In this document: positions 275-11,290 of the stretch, one piece after another | Position numbering within the stretch: the stretch's first letter is position 1 | Layout of the letters: every line of letters starts with the position of its first letter | IMG/VR virus record: IMGVR_UViG_3300005536_000019 | Coordinates: 1-20,537 of that record | Length of the DNA: 20,537 nucleotides | Direction: 5' to 3' (one strand) | Source of the DNA: a virus | Notes under the pieces: generated by a model | Databases searched by the model: none | What the model saw: only the letters and a program-made list of their open reading frames with translations | What the model was told of the DNA's origin: nothing | Made by a program: the position numbers and the translations under genes

Positions 275-814
275 GTGCTGGAGTACGAGGGGAATAAGCG
301 CGAACGTAAAGAATCCTGGAAAATTCGCATGGTAAAGCGCTTCATCCTCGCCAACCCGGACGCGTCCATCCCCGAGGTCGTCAAGGCGTGCCGAACGTCC
401 GCCTCGACCGTCTCGCGCGCGCGGAAGGACCTCCTCGAGTCGGGCCAGATCGCCGCCGCCCCCACGGGACGGCCGTCCCTCCCCGTCGAAGAGCCCTCCC
501 CCCACGAGGGCCCCACGGTCGAGGCCCAGATCGCGGCCGACATCGACCGCGCCATCTCGTCCGGGTCCGCGAAGGCACTCACGCGCGAGGAGCGGCGCCT
601 CCGCCTCTCGGCGTACGCGGACCATCCCAAGGTCCCCGCGGCCTCGAAGATCGCCGCCCTGCGCGAACTCGAGGCGACGGAGCCCAAGGAGAGCGAGATG
701 CTCGGCCCCGGCGCGCCCCAGACGCGCGAGGAGGCCGTCCAGCGCGTCCGCCTCATGATCGAGGCGCTCGGCGACCTCTTCGGAGAGGACGCGCGTGCCG
801 AAGCGATCGCGTAG
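275..814 (+). CDS. Probable terminase small subunit (HTH DNA-binding)
   Basis: A 179-residue protein starting at GTG 275, with GAGG five bases upstream. Residues about 16-58 read as a helix-turn-helix: a basic helix (KIRMVKRFILANP), a helix with SIPEVVKACRTS, and a recognition helix STVSRARKDLLESG. After a Pro-rich linker (60-82), the second half is helical and charged, with a PAASKIAALRELEA stretch (121-134) like the oligomerisation part of small terminases. Small terminases bind the packaging site on phage DNA and hand it to the large subunit. The size fits that family, and it is the first DNA-binding protein upstream of the large terminase gene at 2083, although six small genes intervene. 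It could instead be a late-gene regulator with the same fold. Confidence 0.6.
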   Translation: MLEYEGNKRERKESWKIRMVKRFILANPDASIPEVVKACRTSASTVSRARKDLLESGQIAAAPTGRPSLPVEEPSPHEGPTVEAQIAADIDRAISSGSAKALTREERRLRLSAYADHPKVPAASKIAALRELEATEPKESEMLGPGAPQTREEAVQRVRLMIEALGDLFGEDARAEAIA

Positions 815-1626: not shown

Positions 1627-1829
1627 TGGCGACCGCACCGGAGTTCCGTGAGTTCCACGCCCTCCCGGCCGACGAGCCCGACCACGTCGTCGACGGCGGG
1701 GACTGCCCGTGCGAGCCCCAGTGCCTCCTCGCGGGCGAACTCTTCCGCGTCTTCATCCACAGCCAGGGCGTTATCAAGTTCGTCGTCCGTAGGCACAAGT
1801 TGGCGCCGAAATGGTGGGTAGCGAAGTGA
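1623..1829 (+). CDS. Small Cys/His protein
   Basis: A 68-residue protein; the start is taken as ATG 1623, which forms an ATGA overlap with the preceding stop. The frame is open back to 1572, but that would bury it in the previous gene. It contains HALPADEPDHVVDGGDCPC followed by another cysteine, so His and Cys residues (H12, H21, C28, C30, C34) cluster within 23 residues, and H46 follows. The H..P....H......C.C.P pattern is familiar from short uncharacterised phage proteins and would suit metal binding, but no known zinc-finger spacing is matched. The C-terminal half is a hydrophobic beta stretch with a basic tail. The function is unknown. Confidence 0.5.
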   Translation: MMATAPEFREFHALPADEPDHVVDGGDCPCEPQCLLAGELFRVFIHSQGVIKFVVRRHKLAPKWWVAK

Positions 1830-2086
1830 ATTCGACTACCAAGTTCTTTCTCTACCTCCTGGCGACCCTCTTCATCTTGGCTGTCTACGCCATCCTCGTG
1901 ACTCCCGCTCACTCCGAGGGCCCCCTTACCCCGAAGGGCGCGTACTGGGACGAGTCCCTCTGGTCGGCCGTCAGCCTACCCGACAGCGCCATGGTCTGCC
2001 GCGTCCGACCCGACGGCTCCGTCGGCTGCATCGCCGTCCCGGCGGGCACGATTCTTCTGCTCCCGACGCCGAAAGCGGCGGATTGA
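1811..2086 (+). CDS. Small membrane-anchored or exported protein
   Basis: A 91-residue protein. Start candidates are ATG 1811 and GTG 1826, the latter giving a GTGA overlap with the previous stop; neither has a strong ribosome binding site. Residues about 12-30 (FFLYLLATLFILAVYAILV) form one clear membrane span or signal sequence, followed by TPAHS, a possible cleavage point. The rest is outside-type sequence with two cysteines (C63, C73) that could form a disulfide in the periplasm or cell envelope. In T7-like phages the lysis genes (holin, spanin) sit around the terminase genes, so a lysis or envelope role is possible. However, one span with a 60-residue tail is not diagnostic of any of these. 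Confidence 0.55.
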   Translation: MVGSEVNSTTKFFLYLLATLFILAVYAILVTPAHSEGPLTPKGAYWDESLWSAVSLPDSAMVCRVRPDGSVGCIAVPAGTILLLPTPKAAD

Positions 2087-3825
2087 AGGAGTGGCCGAGT
2101 GAGGTCGAGCGGAAGTTCTGGCGCGGCGCCTGCGCCCCCTCCGCCGGCCCCGACTCCCTCTGGTGGTTCGTCCGCATCGCCTGGGGTACCGAGTGGTACT
2201 TCAAACGAACCGGAAAGACGCGCTGGCTGGTGCCACGAGTTCACAAGCCCTTCCTGCGCTGGTACGCCACCCACATCCTGGAGTGGTTCGACCGACGCCG
2301 CCGCGGAGTAATCGGCCGCACGTACCTCCTCGTCCTCATCTTCCGCAACGCGGGGAAGACGCTCCTCATCACGCGCGCCGCGAACCTGTGGGCCCACCTC
2401 GAGGACAAGAACCTCGCGTGGTACATCGGGTCCGAGACACACCCGAAGGCGAAGCAGTTCCTCTCCTCGGTCAAGGGCGTCATGGACGGGACGGACGAGA
2501 ACTCGTGGTTCGCGTGGCTCTACGGGAATTTCCGAGACAAGACGCGCGCGTGGAGCGCCGAGTCCGTCGTGACCGCGTACCGAACCGCGATGTCCCTCCA
2601 AGAGCCCACCTTCGGCACGTACGGGCTCGAGATGGGCATCACGGGCATGCACCCGGACGGCGTGACGTTCGACGACCCGACGTCCCTAGAGACTATGACG
2701 GAGAACACGCTCCAAGCGGCGCGCGACTCCTACGATTCGACACACCCTGCCCTGCGAACGGATTCGCTATTCGCCGGCGTCATGACTAGATACGCCGGCA
2801 ACGACGCAGGAGGCCACATCCTGTCGCAAGAGGGCGTCGCGAGTTGGTCCGGGCTGGCCTGTCCAGAACCCGACCTCGCCGCCAAGATTGGACAGGGGAA
2901 GGTCCACGTGTACTTCCTACAGGGTAGGGATGTGTCGAACAAGACCGAGGAGCACCCGAAGGGCGTCCCCGTCCTCCCCGAGGTGTGGGACAAGGACGGG
3001 ATGGACCACTACGAGTTCAAGGACCCCATCAACTTTTCGGCCCAGATTCAGAACGACCCGAGCAAGGGAGAGCACATGCCGCTCGAGTACGCGCAATTGG
3101 AGCGGATGGTCATCTCTCGCGAGAACCTCCCCGACATCGACTTCGCCTCCATCCACCTCGACACCGCGTTCAAGGACGAGCAGCGGATCGCGAAAGGCGA
3201 CTGGAACGTCATCGGGGGAGTCCTCCACGACCTCCGCTCTAACGGGCGCGTCTACATCGACCGCGTCATCCGGAACCGCCTCCCGCGACCCGAGCAGTTC
3301 ATCGCCTGCCTCACCTCGTACCTCCTCTCGCTCCGCGACCGTGGCATACGCGTCAAGATCATCACGGACGAGTCCGAGCCGGGCGGGAAGAAGGGGACGT
3401 TCAAGCAACTCCTCCAAGTCTCGCTCGCCATGGCCGGCTTCGTCGTCGGCCCCGATACGATCGTGACCTACAACCGCACGAACCGCAAGGACGTCCGCCT
3501 CCGCAAGGCCGCCGCCTACTGGGCGAGCGGGTACGTCCGGATCATCAAGGGGATCGAGTGGGAGGAGCGGCTCAAGTACGAGATGGTGAACCTCGACAAG
3601 GGCGACCACGACGACGTCACGGACGCCCTCTCCGACATCTGGCAACCCGAGGTCTGGAGTAAGCCGTACAAGGGTTCTCGAGATGGTGGCGAGGTCCCGA
3701 TGCAGCCTGGCGACGAGGGCCTCCGGCCCGGCCTCCTGAGTGAGCACGACCGCATGGCGCGCCGCACCGAGTACGACCCACGCTTCTACGCAGAAAGTGA
3801 GCGGTATACTGATGACCCAATTTGA
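2083..3825 (+). CDS. terL: Terminase large subunit (packaging ATPase-nuclease)
   Basis: A 580-residue motor that cuts concatemeric phage DNA and pumps it into the prohead using ATP. The ATPase domain is N-terminal: a Walker A-like RNAGKT at residues 88-93 after the strand YLLVLIF, and a Walker B-like GVTFDDP at 193-199. The RNase H-like nuclease domain is C-terminal, with acidic candidates D360 (HLDTAF), D429-E430 (IITDES) and the typical terminal HDDVTDAL at 509-516. The start is TTG 2083, overlapping the preceding stop by four bases; no ATG or GTG lies near and the Shine-Dalgarno is weak, so translational coupling is likely. Length and motif order fit the family well. The Pro/Gly-rich last 50 residues look flexible. 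The exonuclease gene overlaps its end by 14 bases. Confidence 0.93.
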   Translation: MKEWPSEVERKFWRGACAPSAGPDSLWWFVRIAWGTEWYFKRTGKTRWLVPRVHKPFLRWYATHILEWFDRRRRGVIGRTYLLVLIFRNAGKTLLITRAANLWAHLEDKNLAWYIGSETHPKAKQFLSSVKGVMDGTDENSWFAWLYGNFRDKTRAWSAESVVTAYRTAMSLQEPTFGTYGLEMGITGMHPDGVTFDDPTSLETMTENTLQAARDSYDSTHPALRTDSLFAGVMTRYAGNDAGGHILSQEGVASWSGLACPEPDLAAKIGQGKVHVYFLQGRDVSNKTEEHPKGVPVLPEVWDKDGMDHYEFKDPINFSAQIQNDPSKGEHMPLEYAQLERMVISRENLPDIDFASIHLDTAFKDEQRIAKGDWNVIGGVLHDLRSNGRVYIDRVIRNRLPRPEQFIACLTSYLLSLRDRGIRVKIITDESEPGGKKGTFKQLLQVSLAMAGFVVGPDTIVTYNRTNRKDVRLRKAAAYWASGYVRIIKGIEWEERLKYEMVNLDKGDHDDVTDALSDIWQPEVWSKPYKGSRDGGEVPMQPGDEGLRPGLLSEHDRMARRTEYDPRFYAESERYTDDPI

Positions 3826-4420
3826 GCCCCTCCACGTAGTGGTGTTTGACTTAGAAACGCGCGCCATGACGACGGACGTGGGTGGGTGGGAACCCCTCCG
3901 CGCCGGCAAGGGCGGCGTCTCCATCCTCGTCGCGCACGACAGTGAGGCAGGGGAGGACTACCTCTTCGACGACCACACCCTCGAGGACTTCGCGCGCCTA
4001 GTCGAGCAGCCGGGCGTCGTCCTCGTGGGCTTCAATTCCAAGTGGTTCGACGTGTCCGTCGTCCAGGGCATCCTCGGCCGCACGCTCAGGGTCAAGTACC
4101 ACATCGACATCTTCGGACTCATCAAGGACGCCCTCGACCGCGAGGGCCGCACGCGCGAGCGTGGGTGGAAGTTGGGTGACGCCGCCCTCCGATCCATGGG
4201 CATTACCAAGAGCGGAAGCGGCGCGTCAGCGCCGGAACTCGCGCGGGAAGGTCGTTGGGCGGAACTCATCACGTACTGCCGCCACGACGTCACGCTCACA
4301 AGGCAATTACTGGACTACATCCGCAGGCACGGCGGCGTCGCCGATCGGGACGGTTCCCTCCTGGAACTCGACATTCCCGACTGGCTACGACTCCCGCCCA
4401 CCGCGGCCCTGGAGGGGTAG
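3812..4420 (+). CDS. DEDDy-type 3'-5' exonuclease (RNase H-like)
   Basis: A 202-residue RNase H-fold nuclease. The first metal-binding motif is VFDLET (D13, E15) after a beta strand; the second is VGFNSKWFD (N75, D80); the third is YCRHDVTLT (Y155, D159), with the Y...D spacing of the DEDDy group. HIDIF (D99) and a KLGDAA segment sit between, as in YprB-like / RNase_H_2 and DNA polymerase B exonuclease-related proteins. Such enzymes remove nucleotides from 3' ends using two metal ions. No polymerase domain follows, so it stands alone. The start is taken as ATG 3812, inside the terminase 3' end; GTG 3797 is an alternative. Placement between terminase and portal suggests a role in processing DNA ends or recombination during packaging, but that is inference. 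Confidence 0.82.
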   Translation: MTQFEPLHVVVFDLETRAMTTDVGGWEPLRAGKGGVSILVAHDSEAGEDYLFDDHTLEDFARLVEQPGVVLVGFNSKWFDVSVVQGILGRTLRVKYHIDIFGLIKDALDREGRTRERGWKLGDAALRSMGITKSGSGASAPELAREGRWAELITYCRHDVTLTRQLLDYIRRHGGVADRDGSLLELDIPDWLRLPPTAALEG

Positions 4421-6310
4421 TTGGCTTTCAAGCAGATTCAGCGGGCGGGGAACCCCGTCCTGTTCCGCGACCAACTCGTCACGCTCGTCAACGAGCGCTT
4501 CGAGTACAGCAACAAGTTCCACTACTCCGTCCGCGCCAAACTCCCGCGCCTCTACGACGTCTGGCGCGGCATCTACACCGGGCGCTACCACCCGCACAAG
4601 AATAACGTCCACGTCCCGCTCATCTACGCCGCCGTGTGGGCCGACGCCGCGCGCAAGGTCGCCGCGTCCCTCAACACGTTCCCGATCGTCCAGTTCCGAG
4701 GCACGGGCCCCGACGACAAGCCCGTCGCGCTCCGGCACGAGCAGTTGGTTTCGGCCCAGTTCGAGGACGCGGGCGCCTTCAAGAAGGAAGTCAACACGCA
4801 CGTCTGCTCCGGCCTCTACGGCGTCGCGATCTCGCAGTCGATGTGGGACCGGCGCGAAGAGCAGGCGACGTTCGACGAGTACGAGGCCATCCCGCTCTCG
4901 ACTGAGCGCGTCCGGCGCATCAGGACGGCGAAGGTCGTCACGTTCGACGGCCCCAACCACGAGAACGTCGACCGGATGGACTTCGTCCCGCAGCCCGGCC
5001 CCGTCTCGATCGACCAGATGAAGTGGTGCGGACGCACGTACTGGCTCGACCTCGACGACTGCCGCATGCTCTCGAGCGGCGACCGCCCGATCTTCGACCC
5101 CGCCGAAGTAGCTCGCATGGAGCGCGAGGGCTCGGGGGCAGAGAAGACGGCCGACGACGTCACGAACCGTAAGTACATGTCGCGCCTCGGCATGTCCGAC
5201 GACATGGCGCGCATCCTCGACACGTTCTCGCGCCCAGTCGAAATCCGAGAGTACTGGGGCATCGTCCCGTCCGAATACGCGATCGACGGCGAGACGAACC
5301 TCGTCATCTCCGTCATGAACCGCAAGTATCTGGGGCGCGCGCGCGGGAACCCGTTCTGGCATCGCAAGAAGCCCTTCGTGGCGCACGCCGGTACGCCCGA
5401 CCCGCAATCGTTCGACTCCGCGGGCAAGGCGGAGGTGGCGGAGAAGCTCCAGTTGACCGCGAACCGGTACGTCAACCAGCGCCTCGACGCCGCGGACCTC
5501 CACATCGACCCGCAGATTTTCTACGACCGGAACGCAGGCATCAACACCGAGCGCCTCTACTCCAAGCCCGGCAACTGGATCGGGACCGACGGGCCGCCCG
5601 GCGACAAGATCATGGCCGCGCCCGTCGACCTCCGCGGCATGCAGGCCGGGGCTGGCATGACGCAGGAGATGATGGGGTACATCGAACGCGCGACCGGCAT
5701 CACGGACGAGGGCATCCAGGGCATCTCGAGCGGCGGCCAGCCCATCACGGCGCGCCAGTTCGTGGGTCAGCGCGAGGCGGCGGGCTCGAGGCTCATGCTC
5801 GAGACGCTCCTCTACGAGCGCACGTACCTCGAACCGCTCATGAACATCTACCAGCGGAACAACCGCCAATTCCTCGAGGGCCCCGTCGAGTTCCACATCC
5901 TCGGCGACAACGCCAAGATCGACCCCGACACGGGCGAACCGATCCGCGAGACGCGCGAGACGCTCGAGGGCTACGAACTCGCGCGCACGTACCAGGCGCG
6001 CGCCGTCGGCGCCTCCAACAATCTCTCGCGCATGGTCCGCCGGCAGGAGTTGGTCCCGCTCCTACAGGCCGTGAGCGCGAACCCGTACGCGGCGAGCGCG
6101 GTGAACTTCGTGAACTTCTTCCGCCAGATTTTCCGTGAGTTTGACTTCGACAACGTGAACGAACTCATCAAACAGAACGCGCAGGCGAACACGCAGATGC
6201 AGCAAGTTCTCGAGCAGACGGGCGCGCAGGGCGGCAACCCCGCCGCTATCCCCGACACCGCCGCGGGAACGGGCGAAGGAAATATGGCGCTGGCTCAATT
6301 CCTGGGCTAG
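4421..6310 (+). CDS. Portal protein (head-tail connector)
   Basis: A 629-residue protein expected to form the dodecameric ring through which DNA enters and leaves the head. It starts at TTG 4421, directly after the previous stop, with GGAGGGG at 4411-4417. The size suits podovirus portals. Visible signs are an N-terminal clip/wing-like region with NNVHVPLIYAAVWADAARK (61-79), a long middle region rich in beta strands, and a C-terminal helical part. That part has ITARQFVGQREAAGSRLM (441-458) leading to LEPLMNIYQRNNRQFL, which matches the long stem helix region of such portals. The last 60 residues are Gln/Asn/Ala-rich and helical, like a barrel-forming tail. Position after the terminase and before scaffold and capsid supports the call. 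Confidence 0.88.
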   Translation: MAFKQIQRAGNPVLFRDQLVTLVNERFEYSNKFHYSVRAKLPRLYDVWRGIYTGRYHPHKNNVHVPLIYAAVWADAARKVAASLNTFPIVQFRGTGPDDKPVALRHEQLVSAQFEDAGAFKKEVNTHVCSGLYGVAISQSMWDRREEQATFDEYEAIPLSTERVRRIRTAKVVTFDGPNHENVDRMDFVPQPGPVSIDQMKWCGRTYWLDLDDCRMLSSGDRPIFDPAEVARMEREGSGAEKTADDVTNRKYMSRLGMSDDMARILDTFSRPVEIREYWGIVPSEYAIDGETNLVISVMNRKYLGRARGNPFWHRKKPFVAHAGTPDPQSFDSAGKAEVAEKLQLTANRYVNQRLDAADLHIDPQIFYDRNAGINTERLYSKPGNWIGTDGPPGDKIMAAPVDLRGMQAGAGMTQEMMGYIERATGITDEGIQGISSGGQPITARQFVGQREAAGSRLMLETLLYERTYLEPLMNIYQRNNRQFLEGPVEFHILGDNAKIDPDTGEPIRETRETLEGYELARTYQARAVGASNNLSRMVRRQELVPLLQAVSANPYAASAVNFVNFFRQIFREFDFDNVNELIKQNAQANTQMQQVLEQTGAQGGNPAAIPDTAAGTGEGNMALAQFLG

Positions 6311-6325
6311 TAGTAGAAAGGACCC

Positions 6326-6718
6326 ATGCTAGAACCGTCTGAGCCCTTCACCGCGGAAGACGCGGCGGCCGCCGACGCGCGGCAGATTCGGGAACTCCTC
6401 GACTCGCGCGGGTACCAGAACTTCCTCGAGCCCCTCATCCTCGCGACCATACGCGTGTGGTCGAAGCAACTCGCCGACCCCTCGATCAAGCGCCACTGGG
6501 ACCGCCCGGACGACTACCTCCGTGGCGGCATCAGGGTCCTCGAGGCGCTCCTCAAGATGCCTCACGACATCATCGAGCAACAGGAGCGTGCGGCGCGCCT
6601 CCACGACGAGGCCGAGACGGTGGAGCAGCACTACGAGAGAATTGCCCGCGATGGACGCGGGCTTCCGGGCACTGACCCCTACGGCAACGAAGGGATCAGT
6701 CCAACAGACCCCATTTGA
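6326..6718 (+). CDS. Hypothetical phage protein between portal and scaffold
   Basis: A 130-residue, mostly helical, acidic protein starting at ATG 6326 with GAAAGGA a few bases upstream. An N-terminal helix (AEDAAAADARQIRELL) is followed by SRGYQNFLEPLI, then IKRHWDRPDDYLRGGIRVLEALLKMP and a charged helix to a Gly/Pro-rich tail. I recall unnamed phage proteins of this kind next to portal genes, but no function is known to me. A structural or assembly helper role is inferred from position only. A 36-base gap holding the next ribosome binding site follows. Confidence 0.6.
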   Translation: MLEPSEPFTAEDAAAADARQIRELLDSRGYQNFLEPLILATIRVWSKQLADPSIKRHWDRPDDYLRGGIRVLEALLKMPHDIIEQQERAARLHDEAETVEQHYERIARDGRGLPGTDPYGNEGISPTDPI

Positions 6719-6754
6719 GGCGAGCGGCGACCGTGGCCTCGATAGGAGTGTCAG

Positions 6755-7654
6755 ATGAGTAACGCAAGCGAAGGCTTCGCGAACGCGATGGCGGACGTCA
6801 CGAATCAGGTTCAGGCGGACGCCGCCGCAGCGCAGCCCCAACGCACCGGAGAGACGACCCCTCCGGCAGCCGCACCCACGCCGACCCCGCAGGCCGACCC
6901 TGCGATCGGTGCCACGTCGACGCCGCTCATCGACGGGAAATGGAAGACGGAGGAGGAGCGCGTTCGCGCCCACCACCTCCTGATCGCGAACCTGAACGCA
7001 GTCAAGAAGGAGAACGATCTCCTCAAGGCCGAGAAGGCCGCTGCTGTCCAGGCTCCGGCGCCCACCCCGCTCTCCCCCGGTCGGGTCGACCCCGCCGCGG
7101 ACGACGAGAAGTGGCGCACAGGCTACGGGATTGACCCCGCGGACCTCGACGCGCGAATTGAGGCCCGAGTGCAGGCCAGGCTCGAGGCCGAGCGCGCCCC
7201 CTCGAGGGCCATGCAGGCCGCGGAAGCGTACATCAACCAGACGTACCCCGACTTCGCGCTCAAGGTTGAGGACATCAAGGCGTTCGTCAACGCCAACGAG
7301 GTCGTCAACGCGCGCGTCCAGGGCCTCTACAATCAGGGGCTCTTCGCCGAGGCGATGGAGATCGGGTACCTGGCGTATGACAACGCGCTCCGCACGTTCA
7401 ACATCGCAGCCGCAGAGAACGCCAACACGCAAGCAGAGATCACTGCCAGCCGACAGGCCGGCACGATGATCTCGTCCCAAGCAGGCGGGCCGCGAGAAGC
7501 GACCAAGTCCCCCAACTCCTTCCCGACGACGGCCGAAGACTGGACCGAGATCGCTCGGATGAAGGCAGCGGGGCAGGACGCCGCAGTCCGTCAACGCCTA
7601 TTCGGCCACATGATCGCGGGCATCCCCGCGCTGAATGGGGGCCAACAGAGGTAA
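6755..7654 (+). CDS. Probable capsid scaffolding protein
   Basis: A 299-residue protein directly upstream of the major capsid gene, starting at ATG 6755 with AGGAG and a six-base spacer. Composition fits a scaffold: an Ala/Gln/Pro-rich, probably disordered N-terminus (20-58), a charged coiled-coil-like helix (about 66-97, VKKENDLLKAEKAA), a second Pro-rich linker, and another long charged helix (ARIEARVQARLEAERAP, about 131-147). A more ordered helical region (150-230) precedes a short basic, Gln-rich end. Scaffolds guide capsid subunits into a prohead and then leave or are degraded. No protease gene is visible nearby, so exit without cleavage is assumed. The call rests on position and composition, because scaffold sequences diverge quickly. 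Confidence 0.75.
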   Translation: MSNASEGFANAMADVTNQVQADAAAAQPQRTGETTPPAAAPTPTPQADPAIGATSTPLIDGKWKTEEERVRAHHLLIANLNAVKKENDLLKAEKAAAVQAPAPTPLSPGRVDPAADDEKWRTGYGIDPADLDARIEARVQARLEAERAPSRAMQAAEAYINQTYPDFALKVEDIKAFVNANEVVNARVQGLYNQGLFAEAMEIGYLAYDNALRTFNIAAAENANTQAEITASRQAGTMISSQAGGPREATKSPNSFPTTAEDWTEIARMKAAGQDAAVRQRLFGHMIAGIPALNGGQQR

Positions 7655-7660
7655 GCTAGA

Positions 7661-8650
7661 ATGGCTTTGGAATTTGGAACCGTAAAGTGGGGTATCGGCG
7701 ACGGTACCCTCGTCAATCGCGAAGACCTCTCCAACATCGTCACGCAGCAGACTCCGTCCGACACGCCGTGGCTCGCCCAGGCGTCGAAGTCGGAAGCTCA
7801 GGGCGTTCTGCATCAGTGGCTCATCGACACGATGCGCGCCCCGCAGACGACGGGCGCGATCGAAGGCGCCGCGTACTCGTTCGTCACGAGCACTACGCCG
7901 TCGCGCGTCACGAACGTGTGTATGATCTTCCGCAAGGACATCGGCGTCTCGCGCACGCAGATGAAGGCCAACCCGGCCGCGATCGGCAACACGTACACGT
8001 ACGAAATGGAGAAGGGCACGAAGGAACTCAACACGGACGTTGAGACTGCCGTGTTCTCGAGCCTCACGTCCGCGACCGGTACGACGGGTGCCGCGCGCGT
8101 CATGAAGGGCTTCCAGAACTACATCACGAGCAACACGGCCCGTCCGGCGTCGCTCGGTGCGGCCGCGACCTCGGGGCAGTTGGTCGCGAACGACTTCAAC
8201 AAGATTCTCGACACGATCTACACCGCGGGCGGTAACCCCGACCAGGTGTTCGTGTCCCCGTCGGTGAAGCGACAGGTGTCGAACTTCACGCTGACGCAGC
8301 AGAACCGCAACATCGCGGCCGCCGAGAAGAAGCTGGTGCAGGGGATCGACATGTACGATTCGGACTACGGTCTGCTCGCCATCGTCCTCGACCGCTTCGT
8401 CCCGCAGTCGACGAACACGAGCACGGCCGCGGCCAGCGCGACGGACGTTCGGGGGACGATGTTCATCCTCGAGCGCGCCAAGAACCGCTGGGCGTGGTAC
8501 GACCCGATCCATCACGAGTACGTCGGCAAGTTGGGCGACTCGATCAACGGAATCCTCGTCGGCGAAGGCTGCCTCGAGGTGTTGAACGAGAAGGCCGACG
8601 GCATGATCCTCGCGATCAACAACAAGAACGCGGCGCTCGGCGACGCGTAG
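7661..8650 (+). CDS. Major capsid protein, SU10/DUF5309 type
   Basis: A 329-residue protein that should form the icosahedral shell with an HK97-like fold. It starts at ATG 7661 with AGAGGT nine bases upstream, six bases after the scaffold stop. The N-terminal arm contains REDLSNIVTQQTPSDTPW (20-37). It is followed by LHQWLIDTMRAP (50-61), EGAAYSF, TNVCMIFRKDIGVSRTQ (84-100) and YEMEKGTKELNTDVE (114-128). This order is characteristic, as I recall it, of the DUF5309 / SU10 major capsid family, whose length is also about 300-330. A later VFVSPSVKRQVSNF stretch and the C-terminal beta region (RWAWYDPIHHEYVGKLGD, then GEGCLEVLNEKA) complete the fold. A strong hairpin lies just after the stop. Confidence 0.9.
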   Translation: MALEFGTVKWGIGDGTLVNREDLSNIVTQQTPSDTPWLAQASKSEAQGVLHQWLIDTMRAPQTTGAIEGAAYSFVTSTTPSRVTNVCMIFRKDIGVSRTQMKANPAAIGNTYTYEMEKGTKELNTDVETAVFSSLTSATGTTGAARVMKGFQNYITSNTARPASLGAAATSGQLVANDFNKILDTIYTAGGNPDQVFVSPSVKRQVSNFTLTQQNRNIAAAEKKLVQGIDMYDSDYGLLAIVLDRFVPQSTNTSTAAASATDVRGTMFILERAKNRWAWYDPIHHEYVGKLGDSINGILVGEGCLEVLNEKADGMILAINNKNAALGDA

Positions 8651-9212: not shown

Positions 9213-9550
9213 AACTAGGCCTCTCCCCCGCTGACAAGAAGTTGCTCGAGGAGGTCATCGACCCCGCCGTCCTTTCGGAGCGCGTCCCGTACATCAAGAC
9301 GGCCCTCGAGGGGATCGAGGAGTACAGCAAGATGCTCGCCGACATCAGCACGCGCGGCAAGCACACCGGCATCGCCGGTCTGAGCGAGGACCTCACGCTA
9401 CAGAAGGTGGCGCACATCCCGACGCACATCGCGACGGCGCTCCTCGAGGTCGACCCCGACATCCTCACGAACAAGACGAAGTTCTATGCTTGGCTCCGAG
9501 GGCCAGGGAAGGCATTCGCTTATACACGCAAAGTGGTGAAGGGAGCCTAA
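9209..9550 (+). CDS. Hypothetical helical protein
   Basis: A 113-residue protein starting at GTG 9209 (GTGA overlap) with GAGGGG upstream. It is predicted helical: SPADKKLLEEVIDPAVLSE, then a long helix VPYIKTALEGIEEYSKMLAD, a Gly-rich turn, and HIATALLEVDPDILTNKTKFYAWL before a basic end. I recognise no family. The base composition becomes less GC-rich over its last 60 bases, towards the inserted homing endonuclease gene, with which it shares a TAATG junction at 9548-9552. Confidence 0.55.
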   Translation: MKLGLSPADKKLLEEVIDPAVLSERVPYIKTALEGIEEYSKMLADISTRGKHTGIAGLSEDLTLQKVAHIPTHIATALLEVDPDILTNKTKFYAWLRGPGKAFAYTRKVVKGA

Positions 9551-9897
9551 TGAATTCAGAGGTGGCTTGGGCTGCGGGCTTCTACGATGGAGAGGGGTGT
9601 ACACACCGGCGCAAAGATTCCAATATGGTATTTCTACGTGTGAATCAGACGGGACCTTGGGCGGAGACATTACTCCGCAGGTTCCAGTCCGCCGTTGGCG
9701 GGCTTGGATATTTGAACGGCCCATACAGACCGAAAAAGGTCAACAGTAACTTGTACTACTGCTGGTGCTGTGCAAAACAAGATGACACCGCCGTTGTTAT
9801 TCAGACGTTGTGGCCACATCTCGGACCCGCCAAACGGGACCAGGTAGAAAGGGCTCTTGAAGCCAGAAAGGATTCCCGTGCAGGACGAGAAATCTAA
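9550..9897 (+). CDS. LAGLIDADG-type homing endonuclease
   Basis: A 115-residue protein starting at ATG 9550 (TAATG overlap) with AAGGGAG just upstream. The motif WAAGFYDGEG at residues 7-16 matches the LAGLIDADG helix and its acidic metal ligand, as in the W.AGF.DGEG form. With one motif the enzyme would act as a homodimer that cuts a long target site and spreads its own gene. A C-terminal CWCC cluster (71-74) and a helical end follow. The gene is less GC-rich than its neighbours (29 of 60 bases are G/C at 9601-9660, against 37 of 60 at 10021-10080), which fits recent arrival. It appears free-standing: no intron or intein signs are visible. Its 3' end overlaps the glycosyltransferase start. 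Confidence 0.8.
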   Translation: MNSEVAWAAGFYDGEGCTHRRKDSNMVFLRVNQTGPWAETLLRRFQSAVGGLGYLNGPYRPKKVNSNLYYCWCCAKQDDTAVVIQTLWPHLGPAKRDQVERALEARKDSRAGREI

Positions 9898-11290
9898 GGA
9901 GGCCTTTAGGCCATATCCCGATTGGAAGATGTACGGATACACGCCCGCGCGCGGAGAATGGAACGCGTGCGTGTACTACCGCCAGTGGGTCCCGTTCTCC
10001 GCCCTCCAGGAACTCGGCCTCATGCAGTCGTGGGTCGATCGCGGGCAACACCACTACGACAAGGACGAGCGGGAACAGCAGGCCCTCCGAGGGCTCCTGA
10101 CGTCCGACATCGCACTCCTCTACGGCATGACGGGCGCGTCGGGCGAGGCCATCCAGAAGGTCCTCCACGGCATGAACCCCGGGACCCTGAACGGGAAGCT
10201 CGTCTACCCGCCCTCGGTCGTCTACGACATCGACGACAACCTCGACTTCGTACACCCGTTCAACCCCACGTACGCAGTCTACGGCGTGCGCGCGATGGAC
10301 GGGCACGTGCTCAAGCCGGGCGAGGACGTCGCGGTCCGGCTCGCGAACGGTAAGGAAATCCTCCTCTGGCAGGACCGCTTCACGAAGGGCGACAAGGGGT
10401 GGCTGTTCGACGTCGAGCGCAACCTCGCGTCCAACGCCCTCATGCACAAGTTCGCCAAGGCGTGCAACGGCTTCACGACCCCGAGCAACTACCTCCGCAA
10501 GTACATGATCGAGAACTACGGGTATCCGGAAGGGTACGTGTACCCGAACTCGATCGTCCCAGGCGACTGGCCGGCGCCGAAGTTCGCTCCACGGAAGAAG
10601 GAAGTTCGCCTCATCTGGCAGGGCGGCGGGTCCCACATGTCGGACTGGTACGCGCTCAAGCCGGCCATCAAGTACATCGCCAAGAAATACCCGAACGTGA
10701 AGTTCGTCCTATTCGGGACCGTCTTCGACTGGATCGGCGACGCCATCCCCGAGGGCCAGCTAGAGAAGCACGAGTGGGTGGGGTACGACGGTTACAAGGC
10801 CACGCGCGCCCTCCTCGACGGGGACATCAACATGTGCGTCCTCCGGAATGACGAGTTCTCGCGCTCCAAGTCTGCCATCAAGTTCTACGAGGGCTCGATG
10901 GGCGCGACACCCGAGGCGACGATCGCGCCCAACATGCCACCGTACAGCGAGGAGATCATCGACGGCGAGACGGGCGTCCTCTACGACGTGAGCGGCACAC
11001 CCGAACAGGCCGCCGAGTCCTTCGCCGCCAACCTCGAACACCTCATCAAGAACGTGGAGTTCCGGCGCCAGGTCGGCGCGAACGCCAAGAAGTGGGTCCT
11101 AGAGAACCGCCACTATCACAAGACGGCCGCGGGCCTCTACGACTACTACCACGAACTCCGGCTCCGCATGCAGAAGGACAAGCCCTACGACCCCGAGGCG
11201 GACAAACTCCCGCCGAAGATCGTCGTACCCGAACTCCCATCGAAGGTCCGGGCCAAGAAGGCACCGACCAAGTCGAGGAAGAAGAAGTGA
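9878..11290 (+). CDS. GT-B glycosyltransferase, GT4-like
   Basis: A protein of about 470 residues that should move a sugar from a nucleotide-sugar to an acceptor. GTG 9878 is chosen because AAAGGA lies five bases upstream; TTG 9857 is an alternative (477 residues). The N-terminal half shows VYDIDDNLDFV, FTTPSNYLRKYM and YVYPNSIV, as expected for the acceptor domain and linker. The C-terminal half begins RLIWQGGGS and has YPNVKFVLFGT, then KFYEGSMGA and EEIIDGETGVLYDV. These match the donor-binding domain, in which a conserved Glu near the K..E motif contacts the nucleotide-sugar and IedGetGlLv ends the site. The tail is Lys-rich. There is no membrane span or signal. Placement between head and tail genes suggests that a virion protein is the acceptor, though host surface or DNA cannot be excluded. 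Confidence 0.82.
   Translation: MQDEKSKEAFRPYPDWKMYGYTPARGEWNACVYYRQWVPFSALQELGLMQSWVDRGQHHYDKDEREQQALRGLLTSDIALLYGMTGASGEAIQKVLHGMNPGTLNGKLVYPPSVVYDIDDNLDFVHPFNPTYAVYGVRAMDGHVLKPGEDVAVRLANGKEILLWQDRFTKGDKGWLFDVERNLASNALMHKFAKACNGFTTPSNYLRKYMIENYGYPEGYVYPNSIVPGDWPAPKFAPRKKEVRLIWQGGGSHMSDWYALKPAIKYIAKKYPNVKFVLFGTVFDWIGDAIPEGQLEKHEWVGYDGYKATRALLDGDINMCVLRNDEFSRSKSAIKFYEGSMGATPEATIAPNMPPYSEEIIDGETGVLYDVSGTPEQAAESFAANLEHLIKNVEFRRQVGANAKKWVLENRHYHKTAAGLYDYYHELRLRMQKDKPYDPEADKLPPKIVVPELPSKVRAKKAPTKSRKKK

Follow-up and report, generated by a model that had tools for sequence, protein, structure and literature searches.

Between the genes for the large terminase (TerL) and the portal protein, the window, by which we mean the whole 20,537-base IMG/VR virus record analysed here (a fragment without polA), carries a 202-residue open reading frame that opens with an ATG at position 3812 and closes with a TAG at 4418-4420 (Table 1). 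An earlier note on this DNA had described the frame as overlapping terL and abutting the portal gene, and both descriptions hold: the overlap amounts to 14 bp, and the portal gene opens with a TTG at 4421, the first base after the stop. We take the ATG at 3812 to be the right start because relatives with 71-76% identity start at the same residue; the longer frame from a GTG at 3740 is merely the longest open one, and the alignment of the relatives' starts rules it out. The GGAGGGG stretch, together with the abutting stop and start, makes it probable that translation of the portal gene is coupled to that of the upstream gene. A promoter and terminator scan of positions 1800-7700 gave no signal above chance.

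The helix-turn-helix protein encoded further upstream is possibly the small terminase subunit. Downstream of the packaging genes, an HNH endonuclease ORF (phrog_5046, window 9490-9897), possibly a homing endonuclease, overlaps the start of a glycosyltransferase-like gene (window 9857-11290), which lies among the structural genes and is conserved throughout the phage family.

Table 1. Features of the window around the predicted exonuclease gene
Feature	Position	Strand	Basis
Helix-turn-helix protein	275..814	+	weak HTH_23 match; relatives have it upstream of terL
Large terminase (TerL), ATPase and RNase H-like nuclease domains	2083..3825	+	PHROG 38, 3.4e-40; full-length TerL structures
Predicted DEDDy 3'-5' exonuclease gene, 202 aa	3812..4420	+	profiles, fold, conservation
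Overlap of terL 3' end and exonuclease 5' end, 14 bp	3812..3825	+	terL stop at 3823-3825
Exo I motif, D13-x-E15 (in VFDLET)	3848..3856	+	D13 and E15 invariant in 62/62 sequences
Exo II motif, FNSKWFD, catalytic D80	4031..4051	+	F79 and D80 invariant in 62/62
Exo III motif, YCRHDV, Y155-xxx-D159 (DEDDy type)	4274..4291	+	both invariant in 62/62
GGAGGGG, resembling a ribosome-binding site, and the exonuclease stop, immediately 5' of the portal TTG	4411..4420	+	sequence
Portal protein, SU10 portal family	4421..6310	+	PF23899, 7.3e-14
Major capsid protein, SU10 family	7661..8650	+	PF17236, 7.7e-68

Fold and active site of the predicted exonuclease

Profile matches to the 202-residue protein are weak but agree with one another (DNA_pol_A_exo1 2e-4, PolB_exo2 0.007, RNase_H_2 0.049), and PHROG 403, named 'DNA polymerase exonuclease subunit', matches at 1.3e-5. 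Against the curated cut-off of 22 bits for RNase_H_2 (PF13482), the window protein scores 14 and relatives score 22.1, 28.8 and 32. No NCBIfam profile matched the protein, and a sequence search of solved structures with it returned nothing useful. An AlphaFold model built with 22 aligned relatives (pLDDT 91.8, pTM 0.89) adopts an RNase H/DnaQ-type fold, the absence of which would have spoken against the earlier note. Foldseek matches the model to the DNA polymerases of T7 and RB69 at a probability of 1.00; in VIA-align, family B polymerases rank first, at a Z of about 15 over ~155-175 residues of the exonuclease region. In many of the archaeal PolB alignment rows, the first residue of the model is paired with chain residue 129. 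Assuming no intervening gap, D13 and E15 would then fall at about 141 and 143, which we take to be the known Exo I positions of the archaeal enzymes.

The three exonuclease motifs that the earlier note had read from the window are all present with a DEDDy signature, and D13, E15, F79, D80, D99, Y155 and D159 are invariant across the 62 family sequences. The part of that reading that did not survive comparison is the asparagine of motif II (N75), which is kept in just 28 of the 62 and is therefore not a defining residue. Fold and active site, like the linkage to terL and portal described below, are well supported, and we regard the protein as the stand-alone DEDDy exonuclease that had been proposed, very probably active in the 3'-5' direction. 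In one contig (L111:1463-2076) the gene is split over two frames, either through an error in sequencing or because the gene itself is broken.

Gene order and co-evolution across relatives

Close relatives (L001, L002 and L020; 71-76% identity) share the terL-exonuclease-portal order, and remoter relatives at 35-50% identity likewise have it. Because an exonuclease query could bias the linkage, terL and portal alignments were also used as queries; nine aligned exonucleases proved too diverse to be used for scanning genomes. The last of these searches, a second portal search blind to the exonuclease, recovered 72 new loci, two of which start inside the portal gene, leaving 70 testable. The exonuclease lies upstream of the portal gene in 68 of them, and the two loci without it (L181 and L182) belong to one lineage with >90% DNA identity. 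Pooling the IMG/VR contigs and removing redundancy by portal left 65 with both terL and portal, and in all of these save one lineage (64/65) the exonuclease sits between the two on the same strand, the conserved order that the earlier note had proposed to look for.

The spacing within this arrangement is uneven. A gap of at most 20 bp separates the exonuclease from the portal gene in 56 of the non-redundant contigs and terL from the exonuclease in only 32; in eight contigs the exonuclease-portal gap is 232-1115 bp. In many relatives, other genes spanning 1-2.5 kb separate terL from the exonuclease, and where genes have been inserted after terL the exonuclease mostly still adjoins the portal gene. 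A protein of ~450-480 aa, rich in His/Thr repeats, lies between terL and the exonuclease in L092, L097, L099, L029, L105, L107 and L102; in L092 it corresponds to phrog_5795, a tail protein.

In the contig sequences of L181 and L182, terL and portal are present and no exonuclease was found, the interval between the two genes holding about 750 bp of other sequence in L181 and about 195 bp in L182; the exonuclease is therefore not universally required at this position. Among 23 related records searched whole, 21 have exactly one exonuclease of the family, and the two without are the L181 and L182 fragments. A passenger or homing gene would occur at random positions among the relatives; this outcome, which would have told against the earlier note, was looked for and is ruled out by the near-fixed terL-exonuclease-portal position. 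Our search of open-access papers turned up no description of such an order.

Values of dN/dS for close pairs (0.05-0.13 for the exonuclease and 0.05-0.11 for the portal, with 0.19 for the one close terL pair) show strong purifying selection on the exonuclease. Its tree distances correlate with those of terL (r 0.80) and portal (r 0.73), where shuffled maxima were 0.29 and 0.20, respectively, and terL and portal correlate with each other at 0.84; on these measures, the exonuclease behaves like one of the packaging module's core genes. FastTree places the packaging-linked exonucleases in one clade beside other phage enzymes, with weak local support (0.645), and a single acquisition appears likely. 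To judge from these comparisons, the gene has a longer history and a stricter linkage than a single window could reveal.

Candidate roles of the exonuclease

Two of the readings considered would tie the protein to the phage DNA polymerase or to TerL. One is that it is the polymerase's proofreading subunit in detached form, as the PHROG 403 match and the structural similarity to proofreading domains would suggest. A PolA gene was found in 15 of the 23 related records searched whole, however, and the relatives' PolA proteins that were read have an exonuclease domain of their own with all motifs (FDIE/YDLE, HNxxFD and YSAKD/YNAKD), two of them coming from contigs with exact terminal repeats; in long contigs, moreover, polA lies far from the exonuclease gene. 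The closest long relative is a 44-kb contig with an exact terminal repeat of 123 bp; its replication and recombination block, with a PD-(D/E)XK exonuclease, a Sak4-like protein, PolA and a DnaB-like helicase, sits away from the packaging exonuclease. Since the relatives' PolA keeps its own DEDDy domain, we reject the proofreading subunit as very unlikely; the name of PHROG 403 is misleading here for the same reason, and the label of polymerase subunit that databases would probably apply is corrected by these findings. The other is that the exonuclease stands in for a missing TerL nuclease, which would fit the adjacency of the two genes and the need for a nuclease in concatemer cutting. Against this, the TerL model (pLDDT 82) matches both full-length terminases and isolated terminase nuclease domains, D360, D511, D514 and D518 are invariant and position 430 is always acidic in 23/23 sequences, and an endonucleolytic cut is beyond a 3'-5' exonuclease. 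The Walker residues of TerL are conserved as well. With the TerL nuclease looking intact by model and residues, we also reject this substitution, which we consider extremely unlikely. As a separate observation on the polymerase, a UDG-like domain precedes the PolA exonuclease domain in L045, L051 and L055 (weak Pfam matches).

A packaging role is the best explanation, given the gene order, the co-evolution with terL and portal and the fact that replication roles are excluded, and we see about an even chance that the exonuclease acts on phage DNA in concatemer processing or packaging. On such a reading, the enzyme would belong with the packaging genes and not with the replication machinery, would be made together with TerL and portal and would act, as a metal-dependent exonuclease, on phage DNA at the packaging stage, both the DNA substrate and the late timing being presumed; it might remove 3' single-stranded ends, flaps and unpaired 3' termini from concatemers or from terminase-cut ends, and trimming before or during translocation could then supply the motor with clean duplex DNA. 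The uses that the earlier note had put forward, namely trimming of DNA ends, action at pauses and processing of concatemer branches, are conjectural, as the note itself said of them. It is unlikely, though worth stating, that the protein docks at TerL or the portal as a part of the motor, where it would trim 3' ends or clear branches while DNA is translocated; if true, this would be a class of motor accessory nuclease new to description, in a large uncultured phage family. Points against a packaging role are the L181/L182 lineage and the fact that cultured phages with distantly similar portal or TerL proteins package without the exonuclease. Operons may also retain genes for expression timing alone, and gene order is circumstantial.

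The same operon argument would accommodate a general late DNA-repair or recombination exonuclease of the MrfB/YprB kind, co-expressed with the packaging genes and taking no part in packaging. Bacterial relatives of the exonuclease are mostly stand-alone RNase_H_2 exonucleases beside housekeeping genes, one of them fused to an MrfA-type helicase, and the nearest other phage enzymes (phi1422 gp06, L011 and L012) lie outside packaging genes. Yet a near-fixed place over very diverse viruses exceeds operon convenience, the gene still lies against portal when other genes intrude, and the separate recombination block already has an exonuclease; we judge this reading rather doubtful. An exoribonuclease working late in infection on RNA of the host or the phage would have precedent in RNase D and NrnC, both of them DEDDy enzymes, and fold does not reveal substrate. 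The top structural matches are nonetheless DNA proofreading domains, and it is not evident why an enzyme that acts on RNA should be linked to terL and portal, so that this role seems improbable. Nor is it any more probable, and perhaps slightly less so, that the protein is a counter-defence or superinfection-exclusion nuclease degrading foreign or host DNA: nucleases encoded near structural genes can be accessory, but accessory genes are usually patchy and mobile, whereas this gene is near-fixed and evolves with core genes.

It has long been asked how packaging motors cope with concatemers that contain nicks, flaps, branches or ragged ends. A family whose exonuclease gene nearly always lies between terL and portal offers a direct way into that question: only one small gene is concerned, a catalytic mutant of it is simple, and a lineage lacking it at this place exists in nature for comparison.

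Comparison with known systems

To our knowledge, the known accessory packaging nucleases are endonucleases, none of them 3'-5' exonucleases, which counts against the packaging role. The closest parallel in genomic place is HK97 gp74, an HNH endonuclease of the cos-phage packaging module that stimulates cos cleavage by TerL (PMC9410871). It provides a precedent for an extra nuclease in the packaging machinery, and the likeness is one of place: gp74 is an endonuclease of HNH fold, whereas the window protein has the RNase H-like fold of a DEDDy exonuclease and no HNH character. A looser parallel is provided by the herpesvirus alkaline exonucleases, for one of which activity is dispensable for genome cleavage (PMC9841436), a caution against assuming that the exonuclease is essential for packaging.

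Bacillus MrfB/YprB is a DEDDh enzyme with a TPR domain that acts with MrfA in mitomycin C repair (PMC11194089). It resembles the phage enzyme in being a polymerase-free exonuclease of the DnaQ superfamily, and relatives of the phage enzyme match PF13482. The phage family, in contrast, is DEDDy, with Tyr in 62/62 sequences and hence outside the DEDDh type, and the 202-residue window protein matches no TPR profile in Pfam and lacks a helicase gene beside it. The best structural matches, the proofreading domains of family B and family A polymerases, have the same type of site (DxE, D, YxxxD), but the window exonuclease differs from them in being stand-alone and within a packaging module.

We found no annotated phage with the terL-exonuclease-portal arrangement, and a search of annotated phages with the window TerL gave no match. 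In Kuura, A-4L, ctOsX528, Pecta and ICP2, whose portal or TerL is 20-27% identical, no exonuclease is annotated, and none would fit by size, between terL and portal. The only clear homologue found in a cultured phage is gp06 of Bdellovibrio phage phi1422, annotated as a putative exonuclease and 27% identical; it lies among unrelated genes with no annotated terminase or portal beside it, unlike the window exonuclease in its packaging module. One further record, the 274-kb 'Microcystis phage MaAM05' (MW495066.1; L064), looks bacterial in the stretch that was read, which encodes a proton pump, a phosphoglucomutase, a potassium transporter and a tRNA.
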